Shown here: positions 10,411-30,249 of the stretch, in pieces | Numbering within the stretch: position 1 is the first letter of the stretch | Layout of the letters: the number at the start of each line of letters is the position of its first letter | From: Sporolactobacillus sp. Y61 | GTDB taxonomy: Bacteria > Bacillota > Bacilli > Bacillales > Sporolactobacillaceae | Direction of reading: 5' to 3' | DNA: 64,000 bases | Assembly (NCBI RefSeq): GCF_040529185.1 | Contig: NZ_CP159510.1 | Span: forward strand, 434,001-498,000 | Notes under the pieces: model-generated | The model's database searches: none | What the model saw: only the letters and a program-made list of their open reading frames with translations | Told to the model about the DNA's origin: nothing | Translations under genes and position numbers: made by a program

Positions 10411-10428
10411 CAAATCCCTCCTCTCAAA

Positions 10429-12917: not shown

Positions 12918-12946
12918 TTGACATATCTCTGATTGAGTTGTATATT
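12918..12946 (+). promoter_or_regulatory. Consensus promoter of the leader-peptide/MHS transporter transcript
   Basis: TTGACA (12918-12923), a 17-base spacer and TATATT (12941-12946). The predicted start near 12953 is about 27 bases before the leader peptide ATG. Confidence 0.8.
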
Positions 12947-12979
12947 AATTCACAATTAAAAGTAAAAGAGTGAACATAA

Positions 12980-13039: not shown

Positions 13040-13043
13040 TAAT

Positions 13044-13128
13044 GCGGGCTGCATGTTGTTGTCCGCAAAAAAGCGGACAGGGCTAGCAGGGCTAGGAACT
13101 GTCAAAGGTTCCTGGCCCTTTTCTTTTT
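13044..13128 (+). terminator. Attenuator hairpins and terminator before the MHS transporter
   Basis: The terminator proper is GGGCTAGGAAC (13089-13099) pairing with GTTCCTGGCCC (13108-13118; one G-U), followed by TTTTCTTTTT. Upstream, GTCCGC (13061-13066) can pair with GCGGAC (13073-13078) or with GCGGGC (13044-13049). These are mutually exclusive folds. All lie between the leader peptide stop and the transporter start. Confidence 0.75.
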
Positions 13129-13216
13129 ATCTTTTATTAATCATGGTAAAAGGGGGCAGGGAAAATATTTTTTTAGTTCGGTGTTAAATCAGAATTTTAC
13201 TTAGGGGGATTTTTTA

Positions 13217-14530
13217 ATGAATAGTGTTGTTGATGCATCATTTGGCGGTGAAACATTAAAACGAGATTCAGTTAAAACCGTTATCTTTGCTTCAATGATC
13301 GGAACAGCCATCGAATTTTTTGATTTCTACGCTTACGGAACCGCTGCTGCTGCTTATTTTCCGCAGGTCTTCTTTCCTGAAGTTACACCGACAATTGCTA
13401 CTATTTTGAGCTTGCTTACCTTTGGTGTTGCTTTTGTTGCCAGGCCATTAGGAGCATTCGTTTTTGGTCACTTTGGCGATAAGATGGGTAGGAAAAATAC
13501 TTTAGTTGTTTCTCTCCTGTTAATGGGCGTTTCAACCGTCTTAATTGGGGTCTTGCCAAGTTATAACACTTTAGGACTAACAGCTGTCTTACTGTTATGC
13601 ACATGTCGTTTTGTTCAAGGAATTGGTTTAGGAGGAGAGTGGTCAGGTGCTGCTTTGGTTGCAACTGAAAACGCTCCTGCTGACAAACGTGCTTTATATG
13701 GTGCTTTTCCAGAATTAGGTGCTCCATTAGGTTTCTTTTTAAGCAATGGTTTATTCTTTGTTCTTGAAAGTATTTTAACACCGGAACAAATGATCACTTT
13801 TGGTTGGCGTGTTCCATTTTTGACTTCTGCTTTATTAGTTATCGTTGGCTTATGGGTAAGAGCAAGAATGCAAGAGACGCCTTTATTCCGATTATCACAA
13901 AAGAAAAATAAGGTTACCCGCTCGCCTTTATTAACCGTTTTGAAAACGGGTTGGCGCCAGTTTATCCAGGGTACATTTATTGTATCTGTTACTTATACCC
14001 TTTTTTATACGCTGGCAACCTGGTCATTAGCATATGCAACGACCAATTTAGGATTTACCAACCGTGAATATTTATTCTTACTGATGGGGGCTGTTTTCGT
14101 ATTTGCAGCATTTATTGTGATTTCCTCGTTAAATGCCGATAGATTAGGCCGGCGGAAAGTTTTAATTTCTTCATCTGTAGCTTTAATCGTCTTTTCTGTT
14201 GTCTTTCCATACTTACTTCAAGGTCACCAGAATTTCTTCGGCGCTGCTGCTTTCTTAGTCATTGGATTTGCTTTGATGGGGATTGCTTTTGGGCCAATCG
14301 GTGCCATTTTGCCAGAATTATTCAAAACTGAAGTCCGTTATTCAGGTTCCGGAATTGCTTATAATCTGGCGGCAATTGTAGGTGCTGCTTTCACACCAAC
14401 AATTGCAACCTGGCTAGCTGCCACCTGGGGAATCCAGTCTGTTGGACTTTACCTCGGAATCATGGCTGTCGCTTGTTTCGTTTCTTTAATCACTATCAAG
14501 GAAACTAAAAATGTCGATTTTACGAAATAA
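13217..14530 (+). CDS. MHS-family (metabolite:H+ symporter) MFS transporter
   Basis: A 437-residue 12-helix transporter of the ProP/KgtP/ShiA-like MHS family. Family marks are GTAIEFFDFYAYGTAAA near residue 30, RPLGAFVFGHFGDKMGRK near 75, RFVQGIGLGGEWSGAALV near 135, and ELFKTEVRYSG near 370. SD GGGGG lies 8 bases before ATG 13217. AT-rich codon use differs from most of the window, and IS relics flank it on both sides, so recent acquisition is likely. The Ile-rich leader in front suggests a role linked to isoleucine or a branched-chain keto acid; substrate not shown by sequence. Confidence 0.88.
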   Translation: MNSVVDASFGGETLKRDSVKTVIFASMIGTAIEFFDFYAYGTAAAAYFPQVFFPEVTPTIATILSLLTFGVAFVARPLGAFVFGHFGDKMGRKNTLVVSLLLMGVSTVLIGVLPSYNTLGLTAVLLLCTCRFVQGIGLGGEWSGAALVATENAPADKRALYGAFPELGAPLGFFLSNGLFFVLESILTPEQMITFGWRVPFLTSALLVIVGLWVRARMQETPLFRLSQKKNKVTRSPLLTVLKTGWRQFIQGTFIVSVTYTLFYTLATWSLAYATTNLGFTNREYLFLLMGAVFVFAAFIVISSLNADRLGRRKVLISSSVALIVFSVVFPYLLQGHQNFFGAAAFLVIGFALMGIAFGPIGAILPELFKTEVRYSGSGIAYNLAAIVGAAFTPTIATWLAATWGIQSVGLYLGIMAVACFVSLITIKETKNVDFTK

Positions 14531-14596
14531 TCATTTAACTGATGAGGATGATCAACATGTCTTTCAAAAATAAAAAGCATCGGTTGCCGCCGATAC

Positions 14597-14645
14597 TTTT
14601 GCATAGTAAATTCACTCTGTCAAATTTTTATATCGCTATGCAAAA
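14597..14645. repeat. Inverted repeat, unassigned
   Basis: TTTTGCATAG (14597-14606) and CTATGCAAAA (14636-14645) are perfect inverted arms 29 bases apart. They lie downstream of the MHS gene, next to a small ATCGG/CCGAT hairpin. Possibly a transposon scar or a weak terminator. Confidence 0.4.
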
Positions 14646-14734
14646 TTAATTATAACATCATTTTTTTAGTTGCTTGTTGTTTCGGGCTTGCCCTTTATCA
14701 GTTAAATTTTTAAAAACAAGGTTCTATACTATCT

Positions 14735-14773
14735 GGTACTGATAGAAGAATTCATCTATCAGTACCCATTTTT
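14735..14773 (+). terminator. Intrinsic terminator downstream of the MHS transporter
   Basis: GGTACTGATAGA (14735-14746) pairs perfectly with TCTATCAGTACC (14755-14766) over an 8-base loop and is followed by CATTTTTTG. Confidence 0.8.
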
Positions 14774-14842
14774 TGTTTATGCTAAAAAGGAAATGAAGCT
14801 GCAACTTCATCACAAAATAAATTAGCCTTCAGACGATAATTT

Positions 14843-15407
14843 AAGCTTCTTCGCTGATTAAAATTAATGAACCTGGAATTACTGGAAACTACCTAATTAA
14901 AAATGACAGGTGGTTTTCAAATGTTAGTAGAGTTCAATGACCTGGATAACTTATTCCATATTACAGAGCCCTGGTATGTTCATGACTGTATCTTTAACGA
15001 AAGCCAAAAAAAGATGGATGTTTATTTAAAAGTATACAAAGAAGCCTTTTTAACGTGCCCAAGCCCGTCTGGCCCCCATGGTGGAACTCTCAAAGACACT
15101 GAAAAAGCATTATGCGGCGTGGTCAGGTGATTCCAATCCCAACTCAACAACAGGATATTGGAAGGCATCAACAGCCTATTCCAGGCACTGAAACGGAGAG
15201 CAGGAGGCTACCACTCCGATAAGAATATCATCGCCATGGTCTACCTGCTTGCCGGAAAATTAGATTTCTCACCCAAATAAAAGAACAGGCATCAGTACGA
15301 ACCACGTATCGCTCACAACTGAACCCGTTTCCTTGTCCGATTTTCATGGATTATTTGGAAATCACTTTACCAAACTATGTCCCATTTACGGATTTTAGCG
15401 AAGAGCC
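14843..15407 (+). mobile_element. Internally deleted ISL3-family element
   Basis: Right boundary is a typical ISL3 end, reading GGCTCTTCGCTAAAATCC inward from 15407. A diverged matching end (GCTTCTTCGCTGATTAAAAT) starts near 14843. Inside are only the two termini of an ISL3 transposase. Length ~565 bases versus ~1.4-1.5 kb expected for the family. It directly abuts the end of the DUF262 gene. Confidence 0.65.
14921..15280 (+). pseudogene. ISL3 transposase, N- and C-terminal remnants
   Basis: The first ~45 codons from ATG 14921 (SD AGGTGG) read MLVEFNDLDNLFHITEPWYV and continue to the zinc-ribbon region. The frame then shifts and most of the catalytic domain is missing. Near 15140 the last ~45 codons resume with LNNRILEGINSLFQALKRRA and AMVYLLAGKL, a characteristic ISL3 C-terminus. 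Non-functional. Confidence 0.75.
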
Positions 15408-15435
15408 ATATAGTTTGGCATTTCAGGTAAAGTGC

Positions 15436-17253
15436 TTAATCCAATGCACCTCCGAAAGCAGAGACAACATCTTCACCATTCAGGTTGATAACTTTTTTAC
15501 CCATAGCATTACTAATTAAATTTATTAACGATTTAGCTCTCTTTAAAAAATATTTATCAAAGTCATCTACTTTAAGATCATCAATATCAATTAGATGAGA
15601 TCTAACATTGCTTTCTAACTGAGATTCCGCTACATGACCGTTATCTTTGATCCTCTTCATATAAACACTAGGGGCGTTCCCACCAATTATCCTGTTTGTC
15701 CGAGCAAACAATGGCGTTTTATTAACAATAGAATTCCATTTCTTTTTATCTATCTTTCTTTTGATACAATAATCGCGCGGAAATATATGGTGAATATCCG
15801 TCCTTTCATCGAGGAACACTATAAAATCCATCTGTCTGCCACTAATAAAATCGCAACAGTGATTCTTTAAAATTAATGCCATAATTCCTTTATAAGCGGC
15901 ACTTTGCCGTGTTTGAAGGGACAGAAGTCTTGTAGGTTCAAAATATGCTCTCTGTACCGTATCAGGTTCTTTTCCATCATGTATCCATCCTAAAACGCCA
16001 CTAACATCACTTGCATACCTTGTTTCATTTGCTCCACCATACATTTCACCGAAAACACCACACCAATACCATCGCGAAATCTTTTCTTTAATCGTACCAT
16101 CCTGAGCCATGGGACCAAGAACAGCAAATATAACCGACATTGGAATTAACTGAGTACTATATGGCAGATCACGTGATGAGAAAATTCTCTGTTCTTTAAG
16201 AAAGCTAGCACTCTGAAGAAAGCCTTCAGTTAATTGATCTGCATATTTTTTGTAATCATTAAGTTTTAACTTAAGTACATCTTTTTTCTTACAACTTATT
16301 GCTTCGCCACCATTTTGCCTCAAATAATATCTGGACAGTAGTGTTATCGATGTTAAAAAATCTGTAGATGAAACATCAGACAATAAGGCGTCTGCTTTAT
16401 TTGAAATAGATAAAGCAGACTTCTGAATGAACTTTTCTTTTCGCATTTCCCAGTCTTTCCGCAATTCAAAGTTATCCGCAGCAAATGTAGCCGTAATTAA
16501 CTCAAAAACAGTTAATGAGACACCTCCAGTATTTACATTTTCAAATACCTGACAAACTGCTTCTTTCGGCGTCTCCTTACTTAATGTAATTACCGGAACC
16601 TTGTAAGCCTGAATTTGTGCTAATATTTTTGCGTTAAAATTCATGTATCGATCGAGAATCTGTGGCGCATAATTATGAAATTTTTGATACTCGTTTTGCC
16701 ATTGTGTGCAGGCAATCATGTCATAGACAATATTTAGTGGAAACATATGATTCTTAAATTCATTTTCTTTTGTAGAAAGATCAAGATCTATATTCCGCCC
16801 AAAATTTGATCTAATCTTTTTATCCTCTGGAACCGAGATTACTGCATCAACTCTATCAATTGTACTGTTCAAACATTTTTCAATATCCAAATAATAGTAG
16901 CGATTAATTTGTTTATTCTTATTTGTCTTCGTAAGCATAGGGCCTCTAAAATACATAGCACCAAAAATTGAAGTTAACCTCTGCTGTCCATCAAGAACAA
17001 GAATCTCTGGTTTGTTCTTACTACTTGATCCACTAAATGGTTTATACTTAAATCGTATCGAATCACCACCATATTCCAAGAACATTAGTGCACCGACTGG
17101 ATAAGAATTCGATATGCTGGCGATTAATGCCCTAATGCGATCATCATCCCATACCCAGCCACGTTGGAAATCCGGCAATTGATTTAATCCCTTATTTATA
17201 GCTACCAGGATTTCTGACATTGGAATATCGTTTGATCTAAAAATATTTGCCAT
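15436..17253 (-). CDS. DUF262 / HNH (GmrSD-type) protein, candidate defence nuclease
   Basis: A 605-residue protein joining a DUF262 (ParB-like) N-terminal domain to a DUF1524-type HNH C-terminal domain, as in the type IV modification-dependent restriction enzyme GmrSD. DFQRGWVW (28-35) and LDGQQR (87-92) are the DUF262 nucleotide motifs; FENVNTGGVSLTVFEL lies near 260. DIHHIFP (486-492), then N511 and N520, form the HNH pattern. The start ATG 17253 is 9 bases after AGGTG; a GTG at 17265 is possible. It is last in a four-gene minus-strand row, 224 bases after the DUF499 gene. Nuclease activity is expected from the family, not shown. Confidence 0.85.
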   Translation of the reverse strand: MANIFRSNDIPMSEILVAINKGLNQLPDFQRGWVWDDDRIRALIASISNSYPVGALMFLEYGGDSIRFKYKPFSGSSSKNKPEILVLDGQQRLTSIFGAMYFRGPMLTKTNKNKQINRYYYLDIEKCLNSTIDRVDAVISVPEDKKIRSNFGRNIDLDLSTKENEFKNHMFPLNIVYDMIACTQWQNEYQKFHNYAPQILDRYMNFNAKILAQIQAYKVPVITLSKETPKEAVCQVFENVNTGGVSLTVFELITATFAADNFELRKDWEMRKEKFIQKSALSISNKADALLSDVSSTDFLTSITLLSRYYLRQNGGEAISCKKKDVLKLKLNDYKKYADQLTEGFLQSASFLKEQRIFSSRDLPYSTQLIPMSVIFAVLGPMAQDGTIKEKISRWYWCGVFGEMYGGANETRYASDVSGVLGWIHDGKEPDTVQRAYFEPTRLLSLQTRQSAAYKGIMALILKNHCCDFISGRQMDFIVFLDERTDIHHIFPRDYCIKRKIDKKKWNSIVNKTPLFARTNRIIGGNAPSVYMKRIKDNGHVAESQLESNVRSHLIDIDDLKVDDFDKYFLKRAKSLINLISNAMGKKVINLNGEDVVSAFGGALD

Positions 17254-17477
17254 CTTTATCATCACCTATCTTCTGCAAATTAGTTCCAGTTTGGTTGTAG
17301 TATAGGACCTCTATGACGATATTAAATGGATTAAGTCAGTGAACTATCGAGATATTTAATCCTGAATTATTCATAGAGCACTGTTCCCCCATCATTTAGG
17401 CGGTGATTCATAATTAAACAAGCGCACTATTGAAACCTTGTCCCCACATGATTATTACCTCTCAGCTGTGGTTAATA

Positions 17478-20400
17478 TTATTCATCAAACCCAAAGTTAT
17501 CAATTTTTAATGTTCGACAATTTTCGCTGACCGTTCGGATGGTTTCTGGTGGAATTCCTTTTGTTACATTGGCATCGACATCAAGCTTAATATCGACATC
17601 ACTCCCATCGAGTGATGTAACATGATTAATGATCTCATCAACAAGGCGGCTCACATCACGATTGATTCTTGTGTTGTCCAATTTGGCAGACATATGAAAG
17701 TGAATAACTTGTGCTGCTTTTTCTTGCTTGTCCCCATTATCTTTATTTGGATTTGGATCGACTTCAACAGCCGCTCCTCCATCATGATTTTCACTGCCAC
17801 CTGGATTGATTTCAGAAGGAGCAGGTTCTTTGATGGTCTGTTCTTTGGTCAATTGTTTTAATGCAATGACAAGTTTAACCAGGTAACTATTTGGATTAAC
17901 CTCAGTTATAGGCCGATTATATGTCAAGCCTATATATCGCTCTTCGCTCTTTGCTTCTGCAAGGGCAAAATATTCTGTTGAATGAATCCCCTCACAAATT
18001 GCCCTTTCCAACACTTCATAAGATGCCAGGCGAGGTAAATAGCAATACGAGCAAAGCTGCTCCCACAACTGTTTAATGGAGATGTCATCCCTGTTTTTCC
18101 ACAGAACATTATCCAGTTCCAGTAGCAATAGAGCAGGTGCCCATTGCGTGATTAAAGCATCCTTTTGTTCCATGTCTCGCACTGCCCTTGCCACAATGCT
18201 GTCATCACTGCCGCCAATATTTGAACTGTCCCATATAATTGCTTTCAAGTCTATTTCCCGGTCAATCCGTGGCACAAGCAGCCATTGATACGCATTTTTA
18301 ATCCGAGATCTTGCAGTCTCATCACTACGATCAATATTAACTTTAGTTTCTTTGACCTGAGTTGCATCTAGATTCAGCGACTCTTTGTCTCGTAAAATGG
18401 ATTGCCACGCCAGATAAAGGCGAATAGTTATTTTCAACGATGGAATTTGATTCACATCCGATGCTACAAAAGCGAGCATGTTTCGATAGAGCCTCGCTGT
18501 ATTGCCACGATTATCCAATATATTTTGAGCTGCGGAAATGGCTCGACTATTTTTTGATCTTGAATCATAGGTATCGGTTGGTTTGAGGATCACCAACCGA
18601 GCAAATTGGTCATCCGGAACATCTAACGACGACGAAGGACAAATGTGGAGGCCGCCAAAAGGTTTTTCCTTCCGTTCTTTCCGCAGACGACGTTCAATTT
18701 CGTTGAGCACGTCTGACTCCGAGAACAGTGTGATTGCCCTGTCTTCGGCTGTTTTTCTCAATGTGGGATGTGTATCAAACCAGAAACGATTATTTGATGA
18801 ATCAGCGTATAGATAACTAAGTTTATTCTGTAATTTGCCAAGTGCATCATTGAAAACGGATATCTGTTCCCCCGGTTGGGCAATCCCTAAACGTATACTT
18901 GATGATTCTATTCCCCTGACAGACTGTTTCTTGTTCGTTGGTGCACTCCCAAATAGTATCGTACGGGCAACTCGTCTGCATGCTAAGTACTGACCAAAGC
19001 GCCTATTCTGTTGATCTTCTATATACGGAATCGAATTTTTCCCATCGACTTCATGGTCGATAATCGCATTCCAGCTTTCAGGAAGATAACGTGTCAGTTC
19101 ATCACGTATGAGGGGATTGTCCAGAGAAATTGATGATGGCATGATCATTAGACCTGCATCGTTATTCATCCACAGATCGTGAACGACGGCAGCCATCAAC
19201 CGCAGGACGCCACGCGTCCTCTGAAAATTTTCCAGTGTTGCCCAATCATCATAAAGCCGATGGAAAACTTCCGGGTGAATTGGGTAACAGGCGATCAGTT
19301 CCCTTTTGTATGCTAATTCCTTGGCCTGAATTGGAAAATCGGAACTATTGTTTTGATACATCTTACTAAATTGACTGCATACCTGCTCACGTCCTGCCGG
19401 ATCTTTGCAGTCAAGGAAGAGTCGTCTTCGAACCACTTCAAAACCTTCGTCCGCAGCTACCGGTTTCCATACCGACTCCATTCGGCCAAATGTATGCTCA
19501 ATAGTTGCCAACACTTGCCTGCCGGCTTCCCCACCAATTTCAAGATTCGATTCTGGTATTGAAGCAACAACAAGACTGTTTTTACTGGCTCGGGCAGCTT
19601 CTGTGATTTCCTGAATAAACGAAATAATATTTTCAAAACTCCCGGCAGGTAAACCACTCACCCCATAAATTTTACGTGCATAAGCGACCAGCTCATCAAT
19701 CAGGACTACGCATGGTCCGCACGCATTGAAGAGATTTTTTAAAGCTTCTGAGCCAGGTGAAATGCCTTTTCGATCCGCTTCTTTTACATAACTGTAAAGT
19801 TGTGGGTTTCCTTCTGATGCAGCCAGTTGAGCAGCCATTTCCCCCCAAAGTGTATTGATCGTAATACCTGGGAAATTATTCGGCCTCTTGCTTTTTGACG
19901 GATTTAGGGCCGTTCCAACAAGTACTGAAATATTCGCCTTTGGTAAAGATTTAAGGCCTGCTTTTTCAAGTACAGATTTGGCATTAGGGATCTTATCAAT
20001 AGACACTTTTCCGCCAAGCAAATGATAAAGTGCTAACATGCTGTGTGTTTTCCCGCCGCCAAAAGCTGTCTTCAATTGAATCACCGGTTCGCCGCCACTG
20101 CCTGTTACTCGTTCGAGTGCCTGAACGAGCAGATTCGACATGCCTTCGGTAACATACGTCCGGGCAAAAAACTCGACTGGATCCTGATATTCATAACTCG
20201 CATCGCCATGTGCGACTTGAGCAAGATCGGCGGCAAACTCTGCATTCTTATAGCGACCTGCTGCTACATCCGGATGTGGTTCAATGACATCGCGCCAGCT
20301 GGGCAGTCCATTGAGTGGTACTTCCCGCATAATGCCGCGGTTTTTTGCTGTTCTAGCATCTCCCGTCCGATTATTCTGAACAACGGCTGTTGATCCCTTT

Positions 20401-20849
20401 TCCGATCCATAGCGGAATTTTCGCATCAGCGATCGGATGTTCTCAGCGCTCTCTGCATCAATTTGCTCGCAAAGGCGCGACATTGTATCCAGCGCCCGCC
20501 ACGTATAATCGTCATCGAAATCTTCACTCCCAGCATGAGCCCACTTGTTTCGTACACCCTTTAATTCCTTGGTCCAGGTGCGATGATCGATCGACAGCTT
20601 TTTACGAAATACCTGATTCCACTGAAAATCAATCAGGTTTAAACATGCAGCAATATCCAGTGAATCAACCAACTTGCCCCACGAACCGGTTAACGGAAGA
20701 TTCCGTTTTTGTTCATCCCGAAGTACATCAAGTACACCGCTCAACCACCAATTATCTTTATACTCAATCTGCAATTCCCGTGCAATATAAGGAGCAAGAG
20801 CTTTTAACAAATATTCGAATCCCCTATTAACTAACTCGTGATTGCTCAT
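17478..20849 (-). CDS. DUF499 (COG1483-type) ATPase with N-terminal Swt1-like HEPN domain
   Basis: A 1123-residue AAA-like ATPase. Residues 1-135 look like a Swt1-type HEPN helical domain with R100-NKWA-H105, the R-X4-H motif of HEPN ribonucleases. Residues ~225-600 form the DUF499 core, with Walker A in AFGGGKTH (262-269) and Walker B VVLIDE (381-386). The C-terminus has a VDPNPNKDN-rich linker and a conserved end domain. Its ATG overlaps the methylase stop by four bases; SD GGGGGAG. This family is found beside DUF1156 methylases in defence islands and is related in role to BrxC/PglY. A motor or scaffold role is inferred. Confidence 0.87.
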   Translation of the reverse strand: MSNHELVNRGFEYLLKALAPYIARELQIEYKDNWWLSGVLDVLRDEQKRNLPLTGSWGKLVDSLDIAACLNLIDFQWNQVFRKKLSIDHRTWTKELKGVRNKWAHAGSEDFDDDYTWRALDTMSRLCEQIDAESAENIRSLMRKFRYGSEKGSTAVVQNNRTGDARTAKNRGIMREVPLNGLPSWRDVIEPHPDVAAGRYKNAEFAADLAQVAHGDASYEYQDPVEFFARTYVTEGMSNLLVQALERVTGSGGEPVIQLKTAFGGGKTHSMLALYHLLGGKVSIDKIPNAKSVLEKAGLKSLPKANISVLVGTALNPSKSKRPNNFPGITINTLWGEMAAQLAASEGNPQLYSYVKEADRKGISPGSEALKNLFNACGPCVVLIDELVAYARKIYGVSGLPAGSFENIISFIQEITEAARASKNSLVVASIPESNLEIGGEAGRQVLATIEHTFGRMESVWKPVAADEGFEVVRRRLFLDCKDPAGREQVCSQFSKMYQNNSSDFPIQAKELAYKRELIACYPIHPEVFHRLYDDWATLENFQRTRGVLRLMAAVVHDLWMNNDAGLMIMPSSISLDNPLIRDELTRYLPESWNAIIDHEVDGKNSIPYIEDQQNRRFGQYLACRRVARTILFGSAPTNKKQSVRGIESSSIRLGIAQPGEQISVFNDALGKLQNKLSYLYADSSNNRFWFDTHPTLRKTAEDRAITLFSESDVLNEIERRLRKERKEKPFGGLHICPSSSLDVPDDQFARLVILKPTDTYDSRSKNSRAISAAQNILDNRGNTARLYRNMLAFVASDVNQIPSLKITIRLYLAWQSILRDKESLNLDATQVKETKVNIDRSDETARSRIKNAYQWLLVPRIDREIDLKAIIWDSSNIGGSDDSIVARAVRDMEQKDALITQWAPALLLLELDNVLWKNRDDISIKQLWEQLCSYCYLPRLASYEVLERAICEGIHSTEYFALAEAKSEERYIGLTYNRPITEVNPNSYLVKLVIALKQLTKEQTIKEPAPSEINPGGSENHDGGAAVEVDPNPNKDNGDKQEKAAQVIHFHMSAKLDNTRINRDVSRLVDEIINHVTSLDGSDVDIKLDVDANVTKGIPPETIRTVSENCRTLKIDNFGFDE

Positions 20850-23629
20850 TGATCTCCCCCCTGAAAGAAATTCAGTTGCTGCGTATCTTGCCGGCGAAGC
20901 TCAGCTGCTTTATTTTGAATATCCGGCCAGGCTGTTACCAGTGAATTGAAGGCAAATGCTTCCTTTGTCCATTTTTTCCGTTCAGCAATGGTGAAAAGCC
21001 GATAAACAAGTGCCCGTGCATCTTCCGCATTAGTACCGGCAACTTGGGCAACGATCCTGGCGGCCTCCTGATTGCCTTTGCCAGTTTCCATTGCCCTTGT
21101 CAGTTGCTGTGCCAGAAGCCAAATCAGCGATCCGTCTTTTTTAACATCTTCAGGCAATTCTTCGCGGGTAAGTAATCTCACTACGCCGTTATCCGCCTGC
21201 AGTATTTTTTCCCGTTCGATTTGATTAATCGAGACGTTTTTGGCATTAGCCAGTACCTCTGCTTCCCCATATTTAATTGTGTTATAGGCATACTGTTCAT
21301 ATAAATCCACACAAAAACGACTGTATTGATCCAAATGTCCGCTTTGTTCGGATAAATACATATCCAATTCCTGATTGATGATTTGCAATGCCGACCGAAC
21401 ACTCATTGGCGTTCCATCTGCTTCTAATACTTTCGTATATTTCGAGAACACAGCCATCCCAGGACCGATCGCAGATTGTGCCAAGTCAACGGGTGCAATA
21501 TTCGATTGCTGCAGCTTAAACAGTGCCGGTCGTAATTCACGTTTCAGACCATTGATAAATTGACGCCGCGTCCCTATTGACGCATCTGCATGACGTTTAC
21601 GACAGACAAGAACGATGGAAGAAGTTAATGAGTTAGTGCCAATACTTAGAGATCTACCTTTTTTTTCCGTGCTAAACGGCCATGTTCCTGTTATTGAAAA
21701 TCCCTCATGGATAATTGCTGAGAGAATCGTTTCCCACCCTTTAGAAATTGTTTTGTTATTGTCACTACTGGTTTCTTTTTGTTTAAAAGCATAGTAGATT
21801 GTAACAGGTATGTCATTACAGCTATGTAAATATATTTCTTTGAAGGCTTCCTTCATACCTTTTTCAAAGTTCATTTTTGCTTTTTCCTGGTTCCCACCAT
21901 ATCTATAAGGAGTTGCAACCAACTCTTCCTTTTTGGGAACTAACATCGTGCTAAAAATATTAGGGTATGCATGAATGAGACAACGTCTTAACCAAATATA
22001 GAAAAAGTCAGACAAATCAGCATATCCGATATTATCATAATAAGGCGGATCAGTAGAAACCATTGTGTTAGTTATTTTTAATTGATTTACTGCACTTTGT
22101 TGATATGCCTCTCCATTTATTTTCCCCTTACATAATGAAGTAAATGCCTCGCACAACCTTTTGAATAAACTATCAAAACTTCCTGATGAATGACTAAAAA
22201 TATTGCATTCAGCAAAATCCCATACCATAGGTATCGCTTGGCGGGCAAAGGTATTTCTCATTTGCGCATTTGTATTATTCCAACTACAGATCGAGGAAGA
22301 ATGATTTGCAATTTGATCGACCAAAAATGCCAAATATACGCCAACTGCTTCGCCATACGCTTTTGCCCCGACACCGCCCTTTGCAAGTTGAATGCCATCA
22401 TTAGCCATTCCGGCGGCAACTGCATCTGCTTCCACTTTTTTCTGCGCCTCTCTAACCAAATCACTGAATGTTGTTAAAGCAGTTAACTGCCGATTGGTGA
22501 AAAGATCAGCAAAATTTCTTAATCCATAATTAGGCGTTTTAAAATCTCGAGGATTATGAGTAATCGTCGCATCTGGATAATCACTTGGCTTCCCAACTAC
22601 AGCTGTTTGCTTTTGAAAATCATCTGCTGAGAGATAAATTCTCCCCTTGTTGCCTTCCGCAACAACAGCAATCAACTGTGTCCCCATTCGTCCAGCTTTC
22701 CCCTCTTCACGTATATAAGGAAATCCGACAGGGGCTCCACAACAAATGCAATGGGCGCCGCGCCGATTCACTGTACCTACAGCATCTTTTTCCCCATATT
22801 TCACTTCATATGTAATTGATTTCCCAGCAATTATTGGCTCAACATAAGCCTCTTTACCCTTCTTCTTCGATAAAATAAAGGAGCGTGCCAGGGGCATTTC
22901 ACAGCCACAGGCTGGATTCGGACATTTTACCGTCCGAGCCCATAGCCAGGCGATCACTGTTGCTTTTCCGCCACCCATTTTTTTGGGTAGGTCAACCTTC
23001 GGATAGAGATTGCCAATTCGCTTGAATGCTTCCTTTTTCATCCACTCGCCATAGTACCGAACATCTTCAGCCAGTCCTTCAGCACCTGACCAAGTATTGT
23101 CCATCGTTTCGGTCCGTGATTTAGGATTAACTGCCGGATGATCGGCAAATTTCGGTGGGATTTCGATCATTGCTTTGTTGATCATGACAGCTACCGGATT
23201 GAGATCGCCGGCGTGTGCTTCAAGTCCCAGGCGTTGTGCCTCAAGTGGAATCGATCCGCCACCCGCAAACGGATCGAGCAGCGGCGGCGGATTACCGTTT
23301 GTTGATTTGCTGATTTCCGCTTTTGCCTGATTCAGGATCTCTTTATTATTCGAATTCTCCCATTTTACCAGTTTTTCAAGGAGTGAAAAAAGGCGGTTTC
23401 GTTCTTCTAACTGTGCTTCTTCCGTTGGAAATTGTTCCGGATGAGACGATGGATCATCAACTAATGAGGCAAAGATAACTGCTCGCGCGGCAGCAAGCGG
23501 ACGCCTCGCCCACCATAAATGCAGCGTCGACGGATGACCGTGCCGGATTGATTTTTCTCGTGCTGAAGCCTGATTAATTGCTTTAAGCGGCAATGCTACT
23601 TCAATTAATTTTTTCCGAGTCAATGTCAT
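20846..23629 (-). CDS. DUF1156 (COG1743-type) adenine-specific DNA methylase with zinc ribbon
   Basis: A 927-residue DNA methyltransferase. The DUF1156 head is residues ~5-60 (SIRHGHPSTLHLWWARRPLA). SAM motif I is DPFAGGGS (119-126), and the catalytic motif DPPYYDN (527-533) fits amino-methyltransferases. Between them is a Zn ribbon of C236-X4-C-X-C243 and HCICC (293-297), probably in the target-recognition part. A four-base gap separates it from the helicase, and it overlaps the DUF499 gene by four bases, so the three are coupled. Probably modifies adenine in host DNA to mark self. Recognition site not predictable. Confidence 0.88.
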   Translation of the reverse strand: MTLTRKKLIEVALPLKAINQASAREKSIRHGHPSTLHLWWARRPLAAARAVIFASLVDDPSSHPEQFPTEEAQLEERNRLFSLLEKLVKWENSNNKEILNQAKAEISKSTNGNPPPLLDPFAGGGSIPLEAQRLGLEAHAGDLNPVAVMINKAMIEIPPKFADHPAVNPKSRTETMDNTWSGAEGLAEDVRYYGEWMKKEAFKRIGNLYPKVDLPKKMGGGKATVIAWLWARTVKCPNPACGCEMPLARSFILSKKKGKEAYVEPIIAGKSITYEVKYGEKDAVGTVNRRGAHCICCGAPVGFPYIREEGKAGRMGTQLIAVVAEGNKGRIYLSADDFQKQTAVVGKPSDYPDATITHNPRDFKTPNYGLRNFADLFTNRQLTALTTFSDLVREAQKKVEADAVAAGMANDGIQLAKGGVGAKAYGEAVGVYLAFLVDQIANHSSSICSWNNTNAQMRNTFARQAIPMVWDFAECNIFSHSSGSFDSLFKRLCEAFTSLCKGKINGEAYQQSAVNQLKITNTMVSTDPPYYDNIGYADLSDFFYIWLRRCLIHAYPNIFSTMLVPKKEELVATPYRYGGNQEKAKMNFEKGMKEAFKEIYLHSCNDIPVTIYYAFKQKETSSDNNKTISKGWETILSAIIHEGFSITGTWPFSTEKKGRSLSIGTNSLTSSIVLVCRKRHADASIGTRRQFINGLKRELRPALFKLQQSNIAPVDLAQSAIGPGMAVFSKYTKVLEADGTPMSVRSALQIINQELDMYLSEQSGHLDQYSRFCVDLYEQYAYNTIKYGEAEVLANAKNVSINQIEREKILQADNGVVRLLTREELPEDVKKDGSLIWLLAQQLTRAMETGKGNQEAARIVAQVAGTNAEDARALVYRLFTIAERKKWTKEAFAFNSLVTAWPDIQNKAAELRRQDTQQLNFFQGGDQ

Positions 23630-23633
23630 TTCC

Positions 23634-26600
23634 TCATTTCTCTAAGAGCACTATTGAGTGATGTACTAATTTCATTATATCGTAGTTTACACTGGTAGCA
23701 CCAAAGTCCGGGGCCTTTATAAATGGTTTTTTCAAATAAATGGTGTGCGTTTTCACTCCATCGACTTTCACGAGTGCCAAAATGAACTCATCTGGTTTAT
23801 TCAGAGCAGTCAGGATTTCATTCTTACTGAGTGTCACTGTTGTGGCATCGCGTGTTCGCCCTTTTACTTCAATAAAGCGGAGACAACTCCCGCCGTGCCT
23901 TTGAGCTTCGGGAATTATCGATTCAATATCATAGCCACATTTTTTTATACTGACATCCTCAGGCACAAAGCCAAGCTCCCGTTCAATCATCATAACAGCT
24001 CGCATGCCGGCCAGCTCGATTATCCGCCGGTCTTTTCCAAACAATCCTGCAGTCGAGGGTTTTCCAAATAGCTTCGTCAGTAATCCCAGAGGAACAACAA
24101 GCGAACCCCCAACGACTTTTGGCGGTATGGGTGATAGATGTTTCGCCTGCTCCAGTTCAGCCAGTCTTTTTCTCATCCTGCCTTCCAGTTCCTCGGCACG
24201 TCGAGTCGCCAGTTTGGAATTAAGCTTAGCATTGGTTTTGCCTGTTGCTTCTTTTTCTTTCAAATCTGCCGCCTGATAGTCCCAATATTGAATCTCAGCC
24301 GTTAACCGTTCCTTCACCGCTTTCATTGTTTTCTCGATTAATTTTACTTTGTGACTTTTCACAGTTTGAAAATGATCAGGAATAATCTGTTCGATCGCAT
24401 AGCGTTTTGCACGTTCTTCCACATTGTGCATCAGCCATGACTGGTTTTTGATATACCCCTTGATACGTTTTCTTTCTTCTTCATTTGCCGGCCTATAATC
24501 AAGATATGGTGCATAACCAGCGTTCATCGACGTACCGTTTTCTTTCAATTCAACAAAATGAACATGTTTGGAGATAACCCTGCGTGTTCCGTTATCAAGA
24601 ATTTTTCCGTCCTGAATCGCATCTTCTATGTAGAAAAGCAGCCTTGGATCGATATTTTCATCATTTTCATCTACATAGATCGTACCACGTTTCAGTACAT
24701 CCCCGTAACGTTCCAGAATCAAACCAATTGTAGCGTCCAACAAAGGTTGCCCGGGGCAAAGAAGAACAGCCGTTGCCTTTCCATGAAGATGGCAGGATGT
24801 TTTATCAAAGCAGACACGCTCATACTTTCTAAGAATTGGTTCATCAAGCGTACTTTCATTGAAGTGTCGGATGGTGTATGGAACAGAGGTGATTTCATAT
24901 CTCCCCTGTTCTCTGGGTTTAATTGATCCCCCTAATTTTGTGAATGCTTCTTTAAAGAACGCTTCGATAAAATGTGGTTGTAATTTATGGGCTTCCGCAC
25001 GTTCCATATCTTCACGAATTTCCGATACCTGATGGATATCCATCGTATCTTCCGTCAATGCCCGCTCTTTAAGCAGATTTTTCAATGCCTTTTGATCCAG
25101 CGAATGATCAACCACCTGATCCAATCTGGCTTTAACCTCCGGACGATTACCATAACGAACTGCTTCAATAAGCAGCTGACGTAAAGATTTATTTTCAAAC
25201 TTCACTTTCCCCAGGATATCGAATACTTTGCCGCCTAGTGCTTTACGCTCGTTATTCAATTTGGCCAATAATTTTTGATAAACCTGGCCTTCACGCGTTT
25301 TATTAGAAACAAGATTCCAGAAATGACACACCTCTGTCTGTCCGATACGATGGATGCGTCCGAAGCGCTGTTCCAGTCGATTCGGGTTCCATGGAAGATC
25401 ATAATTGATCATCAGATGCGCTCGCTGCAGGTTGATCCCTTCACCGGCAGCATCTGTCGCAATAAGGATACGAACTTCTTTATCCTGTTTAAACAGTTCT
25501 TCAACATGATGGCGATCTCTCCGCTGCATGCCACCATGAATGGTTACAACGGCATGGTCATTGCCTAGTAAAGAACATATTTTATTTGTCAAATAATAAA
25601 GTGTATCCTTATGTTCCGTAAAAATAATCAGTTTTTCCCTCTGACCATCAGGACTGAACATATTCTTATCTTCTTGAAGAAGTTTCGAAAGTTCTTCCCA
25701 CTTCCGATCATCACCGGTTGCTCTCACTTCCGTAGCTGCTTGTTCCAGGTGTTTCAATGTTTCGATCTCTGCTTCCATTTCTTTGATAGTTGATGACGCG
25801 GATGCTTGATCCGCGATACGATCTTCAACCGATTCAAACTCTTCACCAGGCATCTCATCAAGGTCATAAAAATCATCATCATTTTTTAAAGCAAGCGAAT
25901 CTTGAGAAACATGACGCTGCATCTTTTCCTCAGTTACCCGTTGCTCTAAGCGTTCCCGCCTACGCCTTAGTGATTGATAAATGGCTTCTGGTGAAGATGC
26001 AAGCCTGCGTTGTAGAATAGTTAACGCGAAACCGACTGTATTCCTTCGTTCAGTGTTCAGCTTATCTGCGCGATTAAACTCTTCCTGAACATATTCAGTG
26101 ACTGCTTCATAAAGTTGTGCTTCCTTAGGAGATAAATCATAATTAACGGTATAAGCAATTCGTTCCGGGAAAAGTGGCGTCCCGTCAAATTTGAGCAGCT
26201 CCTCTTTCACCAAACGTCGCATGACATCGGACACGTCAATTGATTGCTGACTGGAGCGTAACTTTCCTTCAAAGCGATCGGGATCGATCAGCGACATGAA
26301 CAGTTGAAAATCTTCTTCTTTTCCATTATGCGGTGTCGCTGTAAGTAATAGAAAATGGCGTGTAATCGTTGACAGTAGCTGACCGAGTCTGAAACGCTTC
26401 GTATATTTCACTTCGCCACCAAATACAGTGGCTGACATCTTATGTGCTTCATCGCAGACAATAATGTCCCAGTCAATCGCTTTCAGTTTTTTCTGAAGGC
26501 CATCATTTCGCGCCAATTTATCAAGACGGGCAATGCAGAAGGGCATTTCTTCAAAGACATTCCCTGTTACAGCTGAGTCTATATTATCATTATTAAGTAT

Positions 26601-27140
26601 CTTAAACCGAAGATGGAATTTACGATAAAGTTCGTCCTGCCATTGTTCTGACAGATTGCCAGGTGTGACAATCAAGCACCTTTTCACATCGCCGCGAATA
26701 ATCAGTTCCTTTAACAACAGACCTGTCATAATTGTTTTTCCGGAACCAGGATCATCAGCCAGTACATATCGCAGTGGCATTCTTGGCAGCATCTCTTTAT
26801 AAACAGCAGAGATCTGATGTGGTAAGGGTTCGATCTCGGATGTATGGACAGCCAAATAGGGGTCAAATAAATGGGCAAGATGAATGCGATACGCTTCCGA
26901 GACCAGGCGCATCAAACCACCGTCCGCGTCAAAACTCCATGGGAGACTGTCTTTAATGATCTTCAGGTCAGGTTCGCTATCACGATAGAGCAATTCGCTG
27001 CCAAGCTGGCCTTTATCTGTTTTATAGGTGACTTCCAGAACGGCATTACCATACCATGATGCCGCTACAATAGTTACCGGATCATCACCAACGATGCCTT
27101 TCACGACGGTATCTGCAGTTAAATCTTCTAAACGAGCCAA
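23634..27140 (-). CDS. SNF2/DEAH helicase with C-terminal DUF3883-like domain
   Basis: An approximately 1168-residue superfamily-2 helicase/translocase. Walker A is DPGSGKT (130-136), then DEAH (230-233), LLLTATPHNG, and the C-terminal lobe with ATDAAGEGINLQ and RFGRIHRIGQT. A coiled, charged region (~400-470) interrupts the lobes. The last ~90 residues (RFIEVKGRTRDATTVTLSKN) resemble DUF3883, a PD-(D/E)XK-like module. The ORF opens at ATG 27173, but GGGGG is 7 bases before TTG 27140, and the family begins with RLEDL, so TTG is preferred. First gene of the operon; likely the invader-DNA translocase. Confidence 0.87.
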   Translation of the reverse strand: MARLEDLTADTVVKGIVGDDPVTIVAASWYGNAVLEVTYKTDKGQLGSELLYRDSEPDLKIIKDSLPWSFDADGGLMRLVSEAYRIHLAHLFDPYLAVHTSEIEPLPHQISAVYKEMLPRMPLRYVLADDPGSGKTIMTGLLLKELIIRGDVKRCLIVTPGNLSEQWQDELYRKFHLRFKILNNDNIDSAVTGNVFEEMPFCIARLDKLARNDGLQKKLKAIDWDIIVCDEAHKMSATVFGGEVKYTKRFRLGQLLSTITRHFLLLTATPHNGKEEDFQLFMSLIDPDRFEGKLRSSQQSIDVSDVMRRLVKEELLKFDGTPLFPERIAYTVNYDLSPKEAQLYEAVTEYVQEEFNRADKLNTERRNTVGFALTILQRRLASSPEAIYQSLRRRRERLEQRVTEEKMQRHVSQDSLALKNDDDFYDLDEMPGEEFESVEDRIADQASASSTIKEMEAEIETLKHLEQAATEVRATGDDRKWEELSKLLQEDKNMFSPDGQREKLIIFTEHKDTLYYLTNKICSLLGNDHAVVTIHGGMQRRDRHHVEELFKQDKEVRILIATDAAGEGINLQRAHLMINYDLPWNPNRLEQRFGRIHRIGQTEVCHFWNLVSNKTREGQVYQKLLAKLNNERKALGGKVFDILGKVKFENKSLRQLLIEAVRYGNRPEVKARLDQVVDHSLDQKALKNLLKERALTEDTMDIHQVSEIREDMERAEAHKLQPHFIEAFFKEAFTKLGGSIKPREQGRYEITSVPYTIRHFNESTLDEPILRKYERVCFDKTSCHLHGKATAVLLCPGQPLLDATIGLILERYGDVLKRGTIYVDENDENIDPRLLFYIEDAIQDGKILDNGTRRVISKHVHFVELKENGTSMNAGYAPYLDYRPANEEERKRIKGYIKNQSWLMHNVEERAKRYAIEQIIPDHFQTVKSHKVKLIEKTMKAVKERLTAEIQYWDYQAADLKEKEATGKTNAKLNSKLATRRAEELEGRMRKRLAELEQAKHLSPIPPKVVGGSLVVPLGLLTKLFGKPSTAGLFGKDRRIIELAGMRAVMMIERELGFVPEDVSIKKCGYDIESIIPEAQRHGGSCLRFIEVKGRTRDATTVTLSKNEILTALNKPDEFILALVKVDGVKTHTIYLKKPFIKAPDFGATSVNYDIMKLVHHSIVLLEK

Positions 27141-27454
27141 AACGAATCCCCCTGATGATTCATAAAAATTCATTTCCAGGCAATATCATGTTTTTTACTT
27201 TTTAATAGACTTGATGACAGCACACTGGAACACTCTTTAATATATACCTTTCATTTGATTATATCAGATTATTTATCAGTTATTGGTTAGACTTGAAGGA
27301 TGAAAAGCGCCCATAAAGAACTTAATGAATACCTCTTTATCTTATCTTGGGAAAAACCCTCCTTCAAAGATTGTTCTTGGGTGATAAAAATGTATGCACC
27401 CATTATTTTCGCTGACTTCAATATCATGGTGTGAGTATTTTCTGTGAATAAAAT

Positions 27455-27868
27455 TTAAACAGTTACCAGGTTACGTAAATCTGTCTTTTTAGATTTGTAA
27501 GCTTTCTGAAGCTGAAGTTGCTTCATTTCGTTTTCTTGAAGAATCTTATTTTTCTCTAAATCATTTCCCCCCTGCCAGTAACAGGCACATTCCCCATTAA
27601 TCAGGTATTACTCTGACGAGTTTCATATATTTTCTTCTCTTCAAGCAACTTGTCAAGATCCTCAACACACTGATCCTTACTCAGTTTGCGCTTAAGAGAA
27701 TAAAGCTTTTCTGTGGTTTTGATCATCGCTTTTTCGTAATATCAGGTTCATGACCAATAATTTCTTTTCTGTGTTTCTCCTCATCTAATTTTGCTCGAAT
27801 ACACAGAGCGCAAGCCCAGCTTGTCGGCGTGACATTTTTCCAATGTTTTTCTTAATTTGTTTTCCCTT
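27455..27868 (-). pseudogene. Degenerate coding stretch between the two defence units
   Basis: Minus-strand frames hold three short charged pieces that read on from one another only after frameshifts. They are HWKNVTPTSWACALCIRAKL...ITKK, then MIKTTEKLYSLKRKLSKDQC, then ENEMKQLQLQKAYKSKKTDL up to a stop at 27455. They are lysine/glutamate-rich and probably coiled. No family is recognised. The rest of 27141-27454 shows no gene. Confidence 0.4.
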
Positions 27869-27869
27869 T

Positions 27870-28145
27870 TTAACTCGCCACATCCTTTTTGACAAATGCA
27901 ACTGCGACGTCCGGGAATGCATAGAGACACTTCACCTGTTCTTGATCAAAGTCGATGACCACACAATCTTTTGCTTCCTTTAATTCGTTTATTTGTTGAT
28001 CATTCATTTTCAAAGCAAAATCATGTGACCAATCCTTAAAAAAGACGATATGATCGCTTTCTTCAATGAGTGCGACGGGAACGCCACTCGGATTTTCGCC
28101 AATATAGCAATCTTTACCGCTTACCATAATCTCAACACAATACAT
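27870..28145 (-). CDS. Hypothetical 91-residue protein paired with the methylase fusion
   Basis: A small acidic soluble protein starting MYCVEIMVSGKDCYIGENPS. It has a mixed alpha/beta pattern, no signal peptide and no membrane helix. SD AAGGAGTGATTGA is excellent. It lies 36 bases after the methylase/specificity gene on the same strand, so very likely co-transcribed. I do not recognise it. By position it could be an accessory or control factor, but nothing in the sequence proves that. Confidence 0.7.
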   Translation of the reverse strand: MYCVEIMVSGKDCYIGENPSGVPVALIEESDHIVFFKDWSHDFALKMNDQQINELKEAKDCVVIDFDQEQVKCLYAFPDVAVAFVKKDVAS

Positions 28146-28181
28146 TCAATCACTCCTTCGTTATGGTGATAGATCGCTTTG

Positions 28182-29906
28182 TCACGCTTTGTCCCAAATA
28201 CCCTGATTCATCGCGTCATCCAGCTGATTCCGCTCTGATACATATTTTTTCTGAAGCTCAGTTAGCTTTTTATAGTAGGATGAACGGAGCCGCCTGCAGG
28301 ATTCACCAATCTGATCCGCTTTGGTAATCAGCTCTTCCGGTACCGGCAGCCGGCTCAGACTTTTCGCAGTCAGTACGGGCAGGATTGTGCCGGACTGGCT
28401 GCGCGACAGGTAATACTCCCCGAGCGGACTTTCCAGATAGGCTTTAAAAAAATAGGGATTGATCTGCTTCGGCCGCAGCGCCATCAGATTGATTGAGAGA
28501 TAGACAGTTTCGCTGCTGTCAAAGACGGCGATCTTCTGCCGGGTGCCCTTGGCGACAAGGACGATATCGCCGTGCCGCAAACGGTGGCGGCTGAGGTCCC
28601 TGTTGACAGCGAACCGGGCGATCGACTGAAAATCAATGCGCCCGTCATCGCTGATGTCATTAAGCCGAAGTACGGCTGCCCCCTCTCCTGTCTCCGGGTT
28701 GTTAGCCGACAGGTTATACCCTTTCACCAGCGTGCACAGATCCTGCAGGGGAACCGTCTTCAGCGCGCGGAGTGTGTCCTGGTTCCACCGTATTTCACCC
28801 AGGTGTTTCGACAGAAAGGTAGTGCGCATCAGATACTTGTCCACGTCCCAGGAGTCGTCATGGGCAACAATCTCCTGATCCGGTACGAGCCGGCTGAAGC
28901 CATCTTCGTTTTTCGGCGTCTTCAGGACGGACAGGATCTTCTGAATGCCATCTTCAGAGATTTTCTTATCACGCAGGCGTCCTTCGCTGAAGGAACCGGC
29001 ATCGATCATCAGCACGTGATCATTTTCCTTATGGTGGTCAAACAGCAGTAAATTGGTCGCTGTCGCCGACGCTGGATAAAGTCCGGCCGGAAGACGGATG
29101 ACGGCGGACAGCTGAGCAAGCAGATAGCGCCGGACTTTCTGTTCAGAGGCGACGGAACGGATCAGCGGCCCGCTGCCGGAGACGATAATTGTCTTTCCTT
29201 TACTTCGTTCCACCGCATTGAGCAGGAAATAGAAGTCCAGCTTGCCCATTTTCCGATCAAGCGGAGAAAAGCGCCCATGCGACGCCGTTTGCGGATCAGC
29301 CGCCGTCTTCATGCCGATTGGCGGATCGATGACGACCGCGTCGAACTTTTTCAGGGCCGTCCCTTCAAAAAATGCCGGGTCGAGGATCGCGTCGCCGCGT
29401 GCCACCTGATGTGTGTTCCCACTGAGCGTGAGGAACATGTCGGTCAGTGCGACGGCTTCCGGACTGACATCCTGACCGTAATATGCGGTATCCGGATGAT
29501 CCACTGCGAGGTCGAGGAACGAGCCGCCAAATCCGCAGGCTCCGTCGTAAATGGTTTTCACCTGCTCTTCATGAAGCATCCCGGCAATCAGCCGATTGAT
29601 TTCCAGCGGCGTCACGGACAGGCTCCGGAGCCGGATCGCCTGTTTATAGAATCCGTCTTTCAGCTGGCTGGCGGTAATTTTTCTGAAATCGATGTCCTGA
29701 AATGAAGATTCCAGCTGACCGGCGAGATCCGGTACGAGTTTTTTCAACGTTTTTCGGATGGCATGGGCTTGTTCCTCCCCGCCGTCCTGTCGCGCATCGA
29801 TCGCCCGGCTTCCGAGATACAGCGTCACCAGAAACAGTCGTTTTTCGCTGGACATCCGGTCATCCAGTGTTTCTGCACCACGCGCCAGTTGCTCACTGAG
29901 GTTCAT
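28182..29906 (-). CDS. Adenine DNA methylase fused to a type I specificity (HsdS-like) domain
   Basis: A 574-residue protein. Residues ~80-330 are an HsdM-like N6-adenine methylase with SAM motif DGACGFGGSFLDLA (121-134). The catalytic motif is DPPIG (194-198), where DPPY/NPPF would be expected, so the aromatic base-flipping residue is replaced. Residues ~390-560 match one HsdS target-recognition unit (LRLNDISDDGRI, then SLSRLPVP). There is no restriction subunit or nuclease domain in the window. ATG 29906 has SD GAGAAGG; the ORF extends 29 codons further without signals. GC content is higher than the helicase operon, so it probably arrived separately. Confidence 0.85.
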   Translation of the reverse strand: MNLSEQLARGAETLDDRMSSEKRLFLVTLYLGSRAIDARQDGGEEQAHAIRKTLKKLVPDLAGQLESSFQDIDFRKITASQLKDGFYKQAIRLRSLSVTPLEINRLIAGMLHEEQVKTIYDGACGFGGSFLDLAVDHPDTAYYGQDVSPEAVALTDMFLTLSGNTHQVARGDAILDPAFFEGTALKKFDAVVIDPPIGMKTAADPQTASHGRFSPLDRKMGKLDFYFLLNAVERSKGKTIIVSGSGPLIRSVASEQKVRRYLLAQLSAVIRLPAGLYPASATATNLLLFDHHKENDHVLMIDAGSFSEGRLRDKKISEDGIQKILSVLKTPKNEDGFSRLVPDQEIVAHDDSWDVDKYLMRTTFLSKHLGEIRWNQDTLRALKTVPLQDLCTLVKGYNLSANNPETGEGAAVLRLNDISDDGRIDFQSIARFAVNRDLSRHRLRHGDIVLVAKGTRQKIAVFDSSETVYLSINLMALRPKQINPYFFKAYLESPLGEYYLSRSQSGTILPVLTAKSLSRLPVPEELITKADQIGESCRRLRSSYYKKLTELQKKYVSERNQLDDAMNQGIWDKA

Positions 29907-29920
29907 TTGATCGCCTTCTC

Positions 29921-29990
29921 GATAGTTTTTATTAACTATTAATGTTATACCTCTTTTTCGTGGATTTATCAATAGTTTTGTAAAACTATT
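29921..29990. promoter_or_regulatory. Paired palindromes in the methylase-fusion promoter
   Basis: AATAGTTTTGTAAAACTATT (29971-29990) is a 9-bp-arm dyad. A related dyad GATAGTT...AACTATT lies at 29921-29940, next to the start codon. They flank an AT-rich promoter region ~50 bases apart, as for a repressor bridging its promoter. The regulator is unknown and not adjacent. Confidence 0.5.
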
Positions 29991-30249
29991 CATCTACACG
30001 CGCAGCAAAGACAACAAAAAGTGCGAGCAGCATCCGACCACGTAAGTAGAGATGCATTCTGCACCGGCAGCCGTGAGCAACTATCCACTTGTGCCTGAAA
30101 GGGTACCAGCCACTTAGCGTTCTCCGGAAATTTCCTGCTTATTTTAAAGCCATGAAGGTTTTACCTCCATGACCTGAATCGACGTTTTGATGATATCCAT
30201 GGGTTCCATCAGAATGGGTCACGCCAGCAACTAATATCTGAAAATGTCA
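29991..30249. other. Intergenic stretch, no gene seen
   Basis: No ORF or recognisable element apart from a hairpin at 30151-30171. On the minus strand it is CATGGAGG/CCTTCATG with one G-U pair, which could be a distal terminator for leftward transcription. Confidence 0.5.

Follow-up and report, generated by a model that had tools for sequence, protein, structure and literature searches.

An Hma defence operon of Sporolactobacillus with an exchanged segment inside its methylase gene

We analysed a stretch of 64,000 nucleotides (hereafter the window) from Sporolactobacillus sp. Y61, in which three adjacent genes on the minus strand form an operon of the defence system Hma (helicase, methylase, ATPase), also described as the Type-1 DUF499-centred BREX-related (BR) system. 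Between this strain and a sister strain, a segment in the middle of the methylase gene hmaB has been exchanged, while hmaA and hmaC have remained nearly constant. The explanation that we favour, with a probability of roughly 0.78, is that the locus comprises a chromosomal Hma operon and a stand-alone BrxU-like GmrSD protein, and that the exchanged segment of HmaB sets the target that HmaA cuts. The features on which this explanation rests are as follows.

23634..27140, minus strand: hmaA, SNF2 helicase with a C-terminal NOV_C/DUF3883 nuclease domain of PD-(D/E)xK type (PADLOC, Pfam, motif)
20846..23629, minus strand: hmaB, DUF1156 DNA methyltransferase of the DPPY class (PADLOC HmaB, Pfam DUF1156, motifs I and IV)
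21643..22863, minus strand: hmaB segment exchanged between the strains (residues ~256-662), a proposed target-recognition region that surrounds motif IV (DNA and protein identity, synonymous divergence, trees)
17478..20849, minus strand: hmaC, HEPN_Swt1 fused to a DUF499 AAA+ ATPase (PADLOC, Pfam, RNKWAH and GGGKT)
15436..17253, minus strand: GmrSD-type gene (DUF262 plus HNH-like), BrxU/HEC-05-like accessory cargo (Pfam, PDB profile, Foldseek, PADLOC)

A segment of hmaB is exchanged between two strains

The sister strain (genome G202, locus L120) belongs to the same species; its HmaB sequence is listed as that of Sporolactobacillus sp. THM19-2. Its sequence can be aligned across window positions 9183-28655 at 97.8-99.0% DNA identity, except for positions 21643-22863 inside hmaB. 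Protein identity is correspondingly high for HmaA (98.2%), HmaC (99.3%) and the GmrSD-type protein (99.7%), as well as for HmaB residues 1-255 (96.5%) and 663-927 (96.2%), and falls to 58.6% for HmaB residues 256-662. Two conserved islands interrupt this divergent segment, at residues 377-435 and 525-546, the second of which holds the DPPY motif. In the 22 codons of this second island, the fraction of nonsynonymous sites that differ (pN) is 0.000 and that of synonymous sites (pS) is 0.79, such that synonymous sites are near saturation, whereas hmaA and hmaC have pS values of 0.042 and 0.016, respectively, in the same strain pair. Because the island combines an unchanged protein sequence with this synonymous divergence while hmaA and hmaC show so little, the comparison points to the import of foreign DNA rather than to selection on an inherited sequence.

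Phylogenies agree with this view. In a tree of the HmaB flanks (82 sequences), the two strains are sisters at a distance of 0.043 with support of 1.0. In a tree of the segment from the same 82 sequences, rooted at its midpoint, they lie 1.49 apart, and their most recent common ancestor holds 75 of the 82. The set was made up of the top hits to each strain's segment together with six plasmid sequences, and this sampling favours separate segment groups. Exchange within the genome, from a shufflon or a silent hmaB cassette, was rejected as a source: each strain has a single hmaB match, and none was found in the eight congeners searched.

Elevated divergence of hmaB also appears on plasmids. Of the plasmid records that matched, 17 from Thermus and 14 from Rhodococcus, 9 and 6, respectively, were taken for comparison, and two of the Thermus records were then excluded (L172, with no annotated hmaB, and L171, with hmaC cut to 471 residues), leaving seven, in five of which hmaC is cut at its 3′ end. 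Mean pS over the 21 Thermus pairs is 0.155 for hmaB, 0.039 for hmaA and 0.031 for hmaC; over the 15 Rhodococcus pairs the corresponding values are 0.661, 0.202 and 0.320. In both sets, average divergence is highest in hmaB.

Among the titles and abstracts that searches of an open-access library listed, which leave subscription papers and bioRxiv aside, none concerned exchange of an HmaB segment, and the terms 'swap' and 'phase variation' do not occur in the recent survey of these systems (PMC12839542). The novelty lies in the hmaB segment exchange of this strain pair, and not in the trio or in the GmrSD-type gene.

The trio is a known system

All four reading frames are open on the minus strand within 27173-15436. 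Four bases separate the end of hmaA (23634) from the start of hmaB (23629), and the end of hmaB (20846) overlaps the start of hmaC (20849) by four bases. The fourth gene begins either at ATG 17253, the start used by aligned relatives and 224 bases past hmaC, or at GTG 17265, 212 bases past it. The hmaA frame is open from ATG 27173, and the alternative TTG at 27140 is probably the better start because the match to the PADLOC HmaA model starts at residue 13 and the sequence AGGGGG, spotted by eye, lies just upstream. Counts of promoter-like sites (29, compared with 33.8 +/- 6.3 in shuffled sequences) and of terminator-like sites (16, compared with 10.8 +/- 3.7) were uninformative.

The PADLOC profiles for HmaA (1626 bits, residues 13-1173), HmaB (1178 bits) and HmaC (1062 bits, with the match beginning past the HEPN domain) are each covered to about 99%. 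A sequence-only reading of this DNA had correctly described the four same-strand genes with their 4-base gap, 4-base overlap and 224-base spacing, and had concluded that they fit no named system, naming a match to an already named complete system as the result that would count against it. The PADLOC comparison that it proposed gave precisely such a match, and we have abandoned the idea of an unnamed system on the strength of the Hma scores.

Pfam recognises SNF2, Helicase_C and NOV_C domains in HmaA, DUF1156 in HmaB, and HEPN_Swt1 and DUF499 in HmaC; NOV_C is the former DUF3883. The catalytic motifs expected for each protein are present in all four. Specifically, HmaA carries GYD...EVK in its C-terminal PD-(D/E)xK-type domain, and HmaC carries RNKWAH and GGGKT. 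A pattern search also located cysteine pairs in HmaB at 236/241 and 294-297, candidates for the four-Cys zinc finger that the recognition insert of the published DUF1156 methylases carries. Searches of PDB sequences with HmaB and HmaC gave no match at E<=0.01. When patterns were sought in 28 loci, GYD...EVKG was present in all 21 HmaA frames found, and R-x4-H occurred within the first 230 residues in 26 of the 27 HmaC frames found. The exception, the HmaC of L121, is 983 amino acids long and apparently has no HEPN part.

The identity of the trio as a known system follows from the published descriptions of Hma, of the Type-1 BR system and of HEPN-DUF499/SNF2-DUF3883 operons. Hma was named as a three-gene operon with 1,638 instances in 26 phyla (Payne 2021; PMC8565338). 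The Type-1 DUF499-centred BR system has been reported in 2446 taxa; its DUF499 protein is fused to HEPN in 1370 of them, and its helicase to a PD-(D/E)xK domain in 1921, or 79% (PMC12839542, 2026). Already in 2013, HEPN-DUF499 fusions were described in operons with SNF2-DUF3883 proteins, and DUF3883 was termed a nuclease domain (PMC3710099). The operon in the window is the same in its three proteins, their order and their domains (HEPN-fused HmaC, SNF2-PD-(D/E)xK HmaA and a DUF1156 methylase), with no difference in gene content. It is likewise compact and on one strand, in the gene order that relatives share, and the active-looking C-terminal PD-(D/E)xK domain of the helicase in the published systems is matched here by NOV_C and GYD...EVK.

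The DUF499 ATPases are related to the BrxC ATPases of BREX (PMC12839542). In the methylases of BR systems, the recognition insert sits inside the catalytic domain, whereas in BREX it is C-terminal. Canonical BREX (types 1-6), recognised by PglZ together with BrxC, was nevertheless rejected for this locus: a Pfam search confined to 10 flanking proteins recognised no PglZ or other Brx domain among them, in keeping with the absence of PglZ in the sequence-only reading. DISARM was rejected as well. HmaA resembles the DrmD helicase of that system at 374.6 bits, below the NCBIfam cut-off of 610, and no DISARM partner was recognised by Pfam among the 10 neighbours or among the listed PADLOC matches of the four upstream neighbours (for one of these, 25 of 51 matches).

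A model for target choice and its alternatives

We propose that the target-recognition segment of HmaB (~256-662) would recognise a DNA motif, and that HmaB would methylate adenines of self DNA. HmaB together with the AAA+ ATPase HmaC would scan incoming DNA, where unmethylated sites would license the SNF2 motor of HmaA, whose C-terminal PD-(D/E)xK domain would then cut. The HEPN domain of HmaC may serve as a backup RNase, and the GmrSD-type protein may act independently against modified phage DNA. The analysis supports a restriction-modification-like defence locus related to BREX, as proposed on sequence alone, in which the methylase probably marks self while the ATPase and the helicase-nuclease act against invaders.

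In Type-1 BREX, the methylase PglX/BrxX is the specificity factor, contributing motif recognition to both modification and defence (PMC11341690). By analogy, the HmaB segment may read the motif for both the methylation and the restriction arms, and HmaB alone is likely to set the specificity of both. Because HmaA and HmaC are little changed across the exchange, they need not know the motif. We hypothesize, with somewhat better than even confidence, that Hma is BREX-like, that its sole specificity module is the exchangeable segment inside the catalytic domain of the methylase, and that recombination there retargets modification and restriction together while HmaA and HmaC stay unchanged and blind to sequence. 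If so, the motif should differ between the strains, and restriction should follow the new motif. The strain pair is useful as a natural experiment in which the likely specificity subunit of Hma varies apart from the motor and the nuclease, and comparing the two methylomes would directly test what Hma recognises.

An alternative is that HmaC, through its alpha+beta, winged helix-turn-helix and C-terminal RNA recognition motif (RRM) regions, recognises invader DNA instead of HmaB. Invader recognition has been ascribed in part to fast-evolving HmaC domains (PMC12839542), a proposal on which the exchange bears directly, and Rhodococcus HmaC windows 1001-1050 drop to 64-69% identity in an alignment that includes two misframed Thermus rows. 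However, the near identity of HmaC across the HmaB exchange, complete for residues 901-1123, means that a sequence-specific role for HmaC would leave it mismatched to one of the two HmaB alleles, and we regard this alternative as unlikely. Another view is that the segment differs through fast selection on an inherited gene, with no exchange. Rapid divergence is a known property of target-recognition domains, but an island with no amino acid change and near-saturated synonymous sites, set against the low pS of hmaA and hmaC, and the conflict between segment and flank trees make this highly improbable.

Several observations weigh against exchange of a discrete HmaB module that sets the target of an adenine methylase. 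Payne 2021 describes HmaB as an m5C methylase (PMC8565338), in contrast to the N6-adenine type given more recently (PMC12839542). The predicted HmaB model has a mean pLDDT (per-residue model confidence) of 71.7, and it gave no PDB Foldseek match at E<=0.001. Between the two strains, HmaA residues 1151-1175 are only 80% identical, and pS is raised in the hmaB flanks (0.24 for residues 1-255 and 0.13 for 663-927), so that the exchanged tract is wider than the segment or patchy. On the Rhodococcus plasmids, the synonymous excess covers the whole of hmaB, hmaC is more variable than hmaA, and one pair (L177/L179) has a single hmaB in common. On the Thermus plasmids, variation peaks at HmaB residues 436-524, with little in 547-662.

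The fourth gene as probable defence cargo

The fourth protein matches Pfam GmrSD_N, the former DUF262, at 111.2 bits (cut-off 33.2), and carries DGQQR in this N-terminal domain. Its putative HNH part holds a conserved DIHH[IV]FP...N motif but gave no Pfam hit at E 0.001. When a profile of its family was compared with the PDB, BrxU (7p9k) was the sole hit at E<=0.01 (E 3.4e-6, residues 12-96). BrxU is also the best PDB Foldseek match to the predicted model (E 2.8e-9, ~15% identity), a weak fold match with a TM-score of 0.38; this model has a mean pLDDT of 68.4 and falls below 50 in residues 1-34 and 51-94. Partial PADLOC matches were obtained to PDC-M55C (87.6 bits) and, at a lower score, to HEC-05 (72.6 bits, residues 10-262 of 608), for which the library gives no cut-off. 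The protein shares with BrxU/HEC-05, type IV restriction enzymes of the GmrSD family that cut only modified DNA, the DUF262 N-terminus, a similar length and a position beside a BREX-like system, BrxU being a protein that works with BREX. BrxU lies between core genes, whereas the fourth gene here follows hmaC.

The sequence-only reading had joined this gene to the trio as a DUF262/HNH subunit of a four-gene unit. Were that so, the protein would be a dedicated subunit of an Hma variant that supplies DNA cleavage. The gene does directly follow hmaC on the same strand in both the window and the sister strain, and DUF262 genes lie no more than about 10 bases from where hmaC ends in a Coriobacteriaceae metagenome-assembled genome (L103), 24 bases past hmaC, by the first start codon, in G608 (L126), and after the hmaC of a divergent Hma in G398 (L155). 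Among 53 HmaC-bearing genomes, 43 GmrSD_N hits exceed the cut-off, spread over 31 genomes, and four of them fall directly after hmaC (G000, G202, G608 and G398), where a rough estimate of the chance expectation is well under one.

Against this stands the scarcity of the linkage. The best 120 of 8000 scored relatives of the fourth protein are 59-72% identical to it, own-species entries apart. HmaB and HmaC matches (tblastn, E<=1e-8) lie near at least three of the best 80 homologue loci (L047, L103 and L114), a lower bound, as more than 4 kb of upstream sequence is present in 61 of the 80 and more than 9 kb in 45. The matches in L114 are distant (24-30% identity), and L109 yielded no more than a weak HmaB-like match. 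Conversely, in 17 genomes with HmaC above 1000 bits, the window and sister strain included, the family follows hmaC in three (window, sister strain and G608) and is absent from the stretch examined in the other 14. Elsewhere the slot directly after hmaC is filled by Mrr (L123), Gabija GajAB (L131) or an Avs3-like protein (L133), and HmaA has a nuclease motif of its own. An obligate fourth subunit is therefore too strong a claim, and we consider a true four-gene system quite unlikely.

Other defence-like genes also accompany Hma. Of 20 Hma-neighbour proteins, picked by eye and not a random sample, 13 match a PADLOC model at E<=1e-8; among these 13, the proteins of L126 and L155 are themselves GmrSD-type, those of L121 and L122 are marginal, and that of L124 appears to be an ordinary cysteine desulfurase. 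A PDC-M07A-like protein lies between hmaB and hmaC in L137, and a Schlafen AlbA_2 protein (Pfam) between hmaA and hmaB in L122. GmrSD-like genes embedded in Hma loci have already been described in print. Because the gene is facultative, the occupant of the slot varies and such genes are published, the locus is best read as Hma plus one item of interchangeable defence cargo, not as a new four-gene system. Since the system is already known, the four-gene claim adds little.

In two Coriobacteria-type loci, L103 (11828-13955) and L047 (10456-11601), a PDC-M42C-like gene follows the DUF262 gene; that of L103 has a NADAR domain by Pfam and is followed by an Mrr-type gene. The DUF262 gene in these loci may travel with partners of its own.

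Linkage of the trio across genomes

HmaC searches, both counting the genome of the window, gave matches in 9 of 397 genomes of the order, two of which are short C-terminal fragments only, and matches of any strength in 73 of 398 genomes of the phylum. In the 17 strong Hma loci, hmaB adjoins hmaC on the same strand without exception. In 15 of them hmaA is found upstream in the same orientation, and in three of these 15 an additional gene separates it from hmaB; in the remaining two the contig ends inside hmaB. The association of the three genes is thus beyond chance, and the fourth gene is not bound to them in this way. The kind of neighbourhood survey that the sequence-only reading proposed for all four genes bears out the trio, with the DUF262 gene facultative. 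Within the genus, hmaB is present in two of the 10 genomes searched, both of the same species; five further genus genomes lay outside this search.

Two congeners without an hmaB match, G151 and G334, contain short frames that resemble the last ~75 residues of HmaC (L160, 8721-9161, minus strand; L161, 9906-10193, plus strand), with protein identities of 78% and 76% and different neighbours. By eye, the frame in L161 follows an rlmH-like gene. These frames may be what is left of lost operons, or may encode an RRM that stands alone.

On the Thermus plasmids (L167-L175), the system is broken up: hmaA points the opposite way from hmaB and hmaC, and toxin-antitoxin and regulator genes separate hmaB from hmaC. 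A Fic gene lies beside hmaB in six of the nine, and the stretch examined of L172 has hmaA but neither an annotated hmaB nor an annotated hmaC. On the Rhodococcus plasmid L181, an ISL3-like transposase gene (15194-16519) lies between hmaB and hmaC, and the annotated hmaB is shorter (837 amino acids).

Surroundings of the operon

Two further genes lie upstream of hmaA on the same strand.

28182..29993, minus strand: solitary N6_Mtase with a type I specificity-like C-terminus (Pfam N6_Mtase; PADLOC MTase_I, Specificity_I)
27870..28145, minus strand: open reading frame of 91 amino acids between hmaA and the N6_Mtase gene (matches no family; the copy in the sister strain is 99% identical)

The N6_Mtase gene is a same-strand neighbour whose association with the operon is putative, and we do not count it as part of the system. 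Among 15 genus genomes, a close copy (98%) is found besides the window only in the sister strain, with weaker matches in seven others. Directly after the DUF262 gene, on the plus strand at ~14950-15300, a decayed frame resembles the C-terminal end of a transposase, presumably of ISL3 type. Farther upstream of the operon, two closely spaced Y_phosphatase3 tyrosine-phosphatase genes (31942-32742 and 33078-33875) are divergently transcribed.

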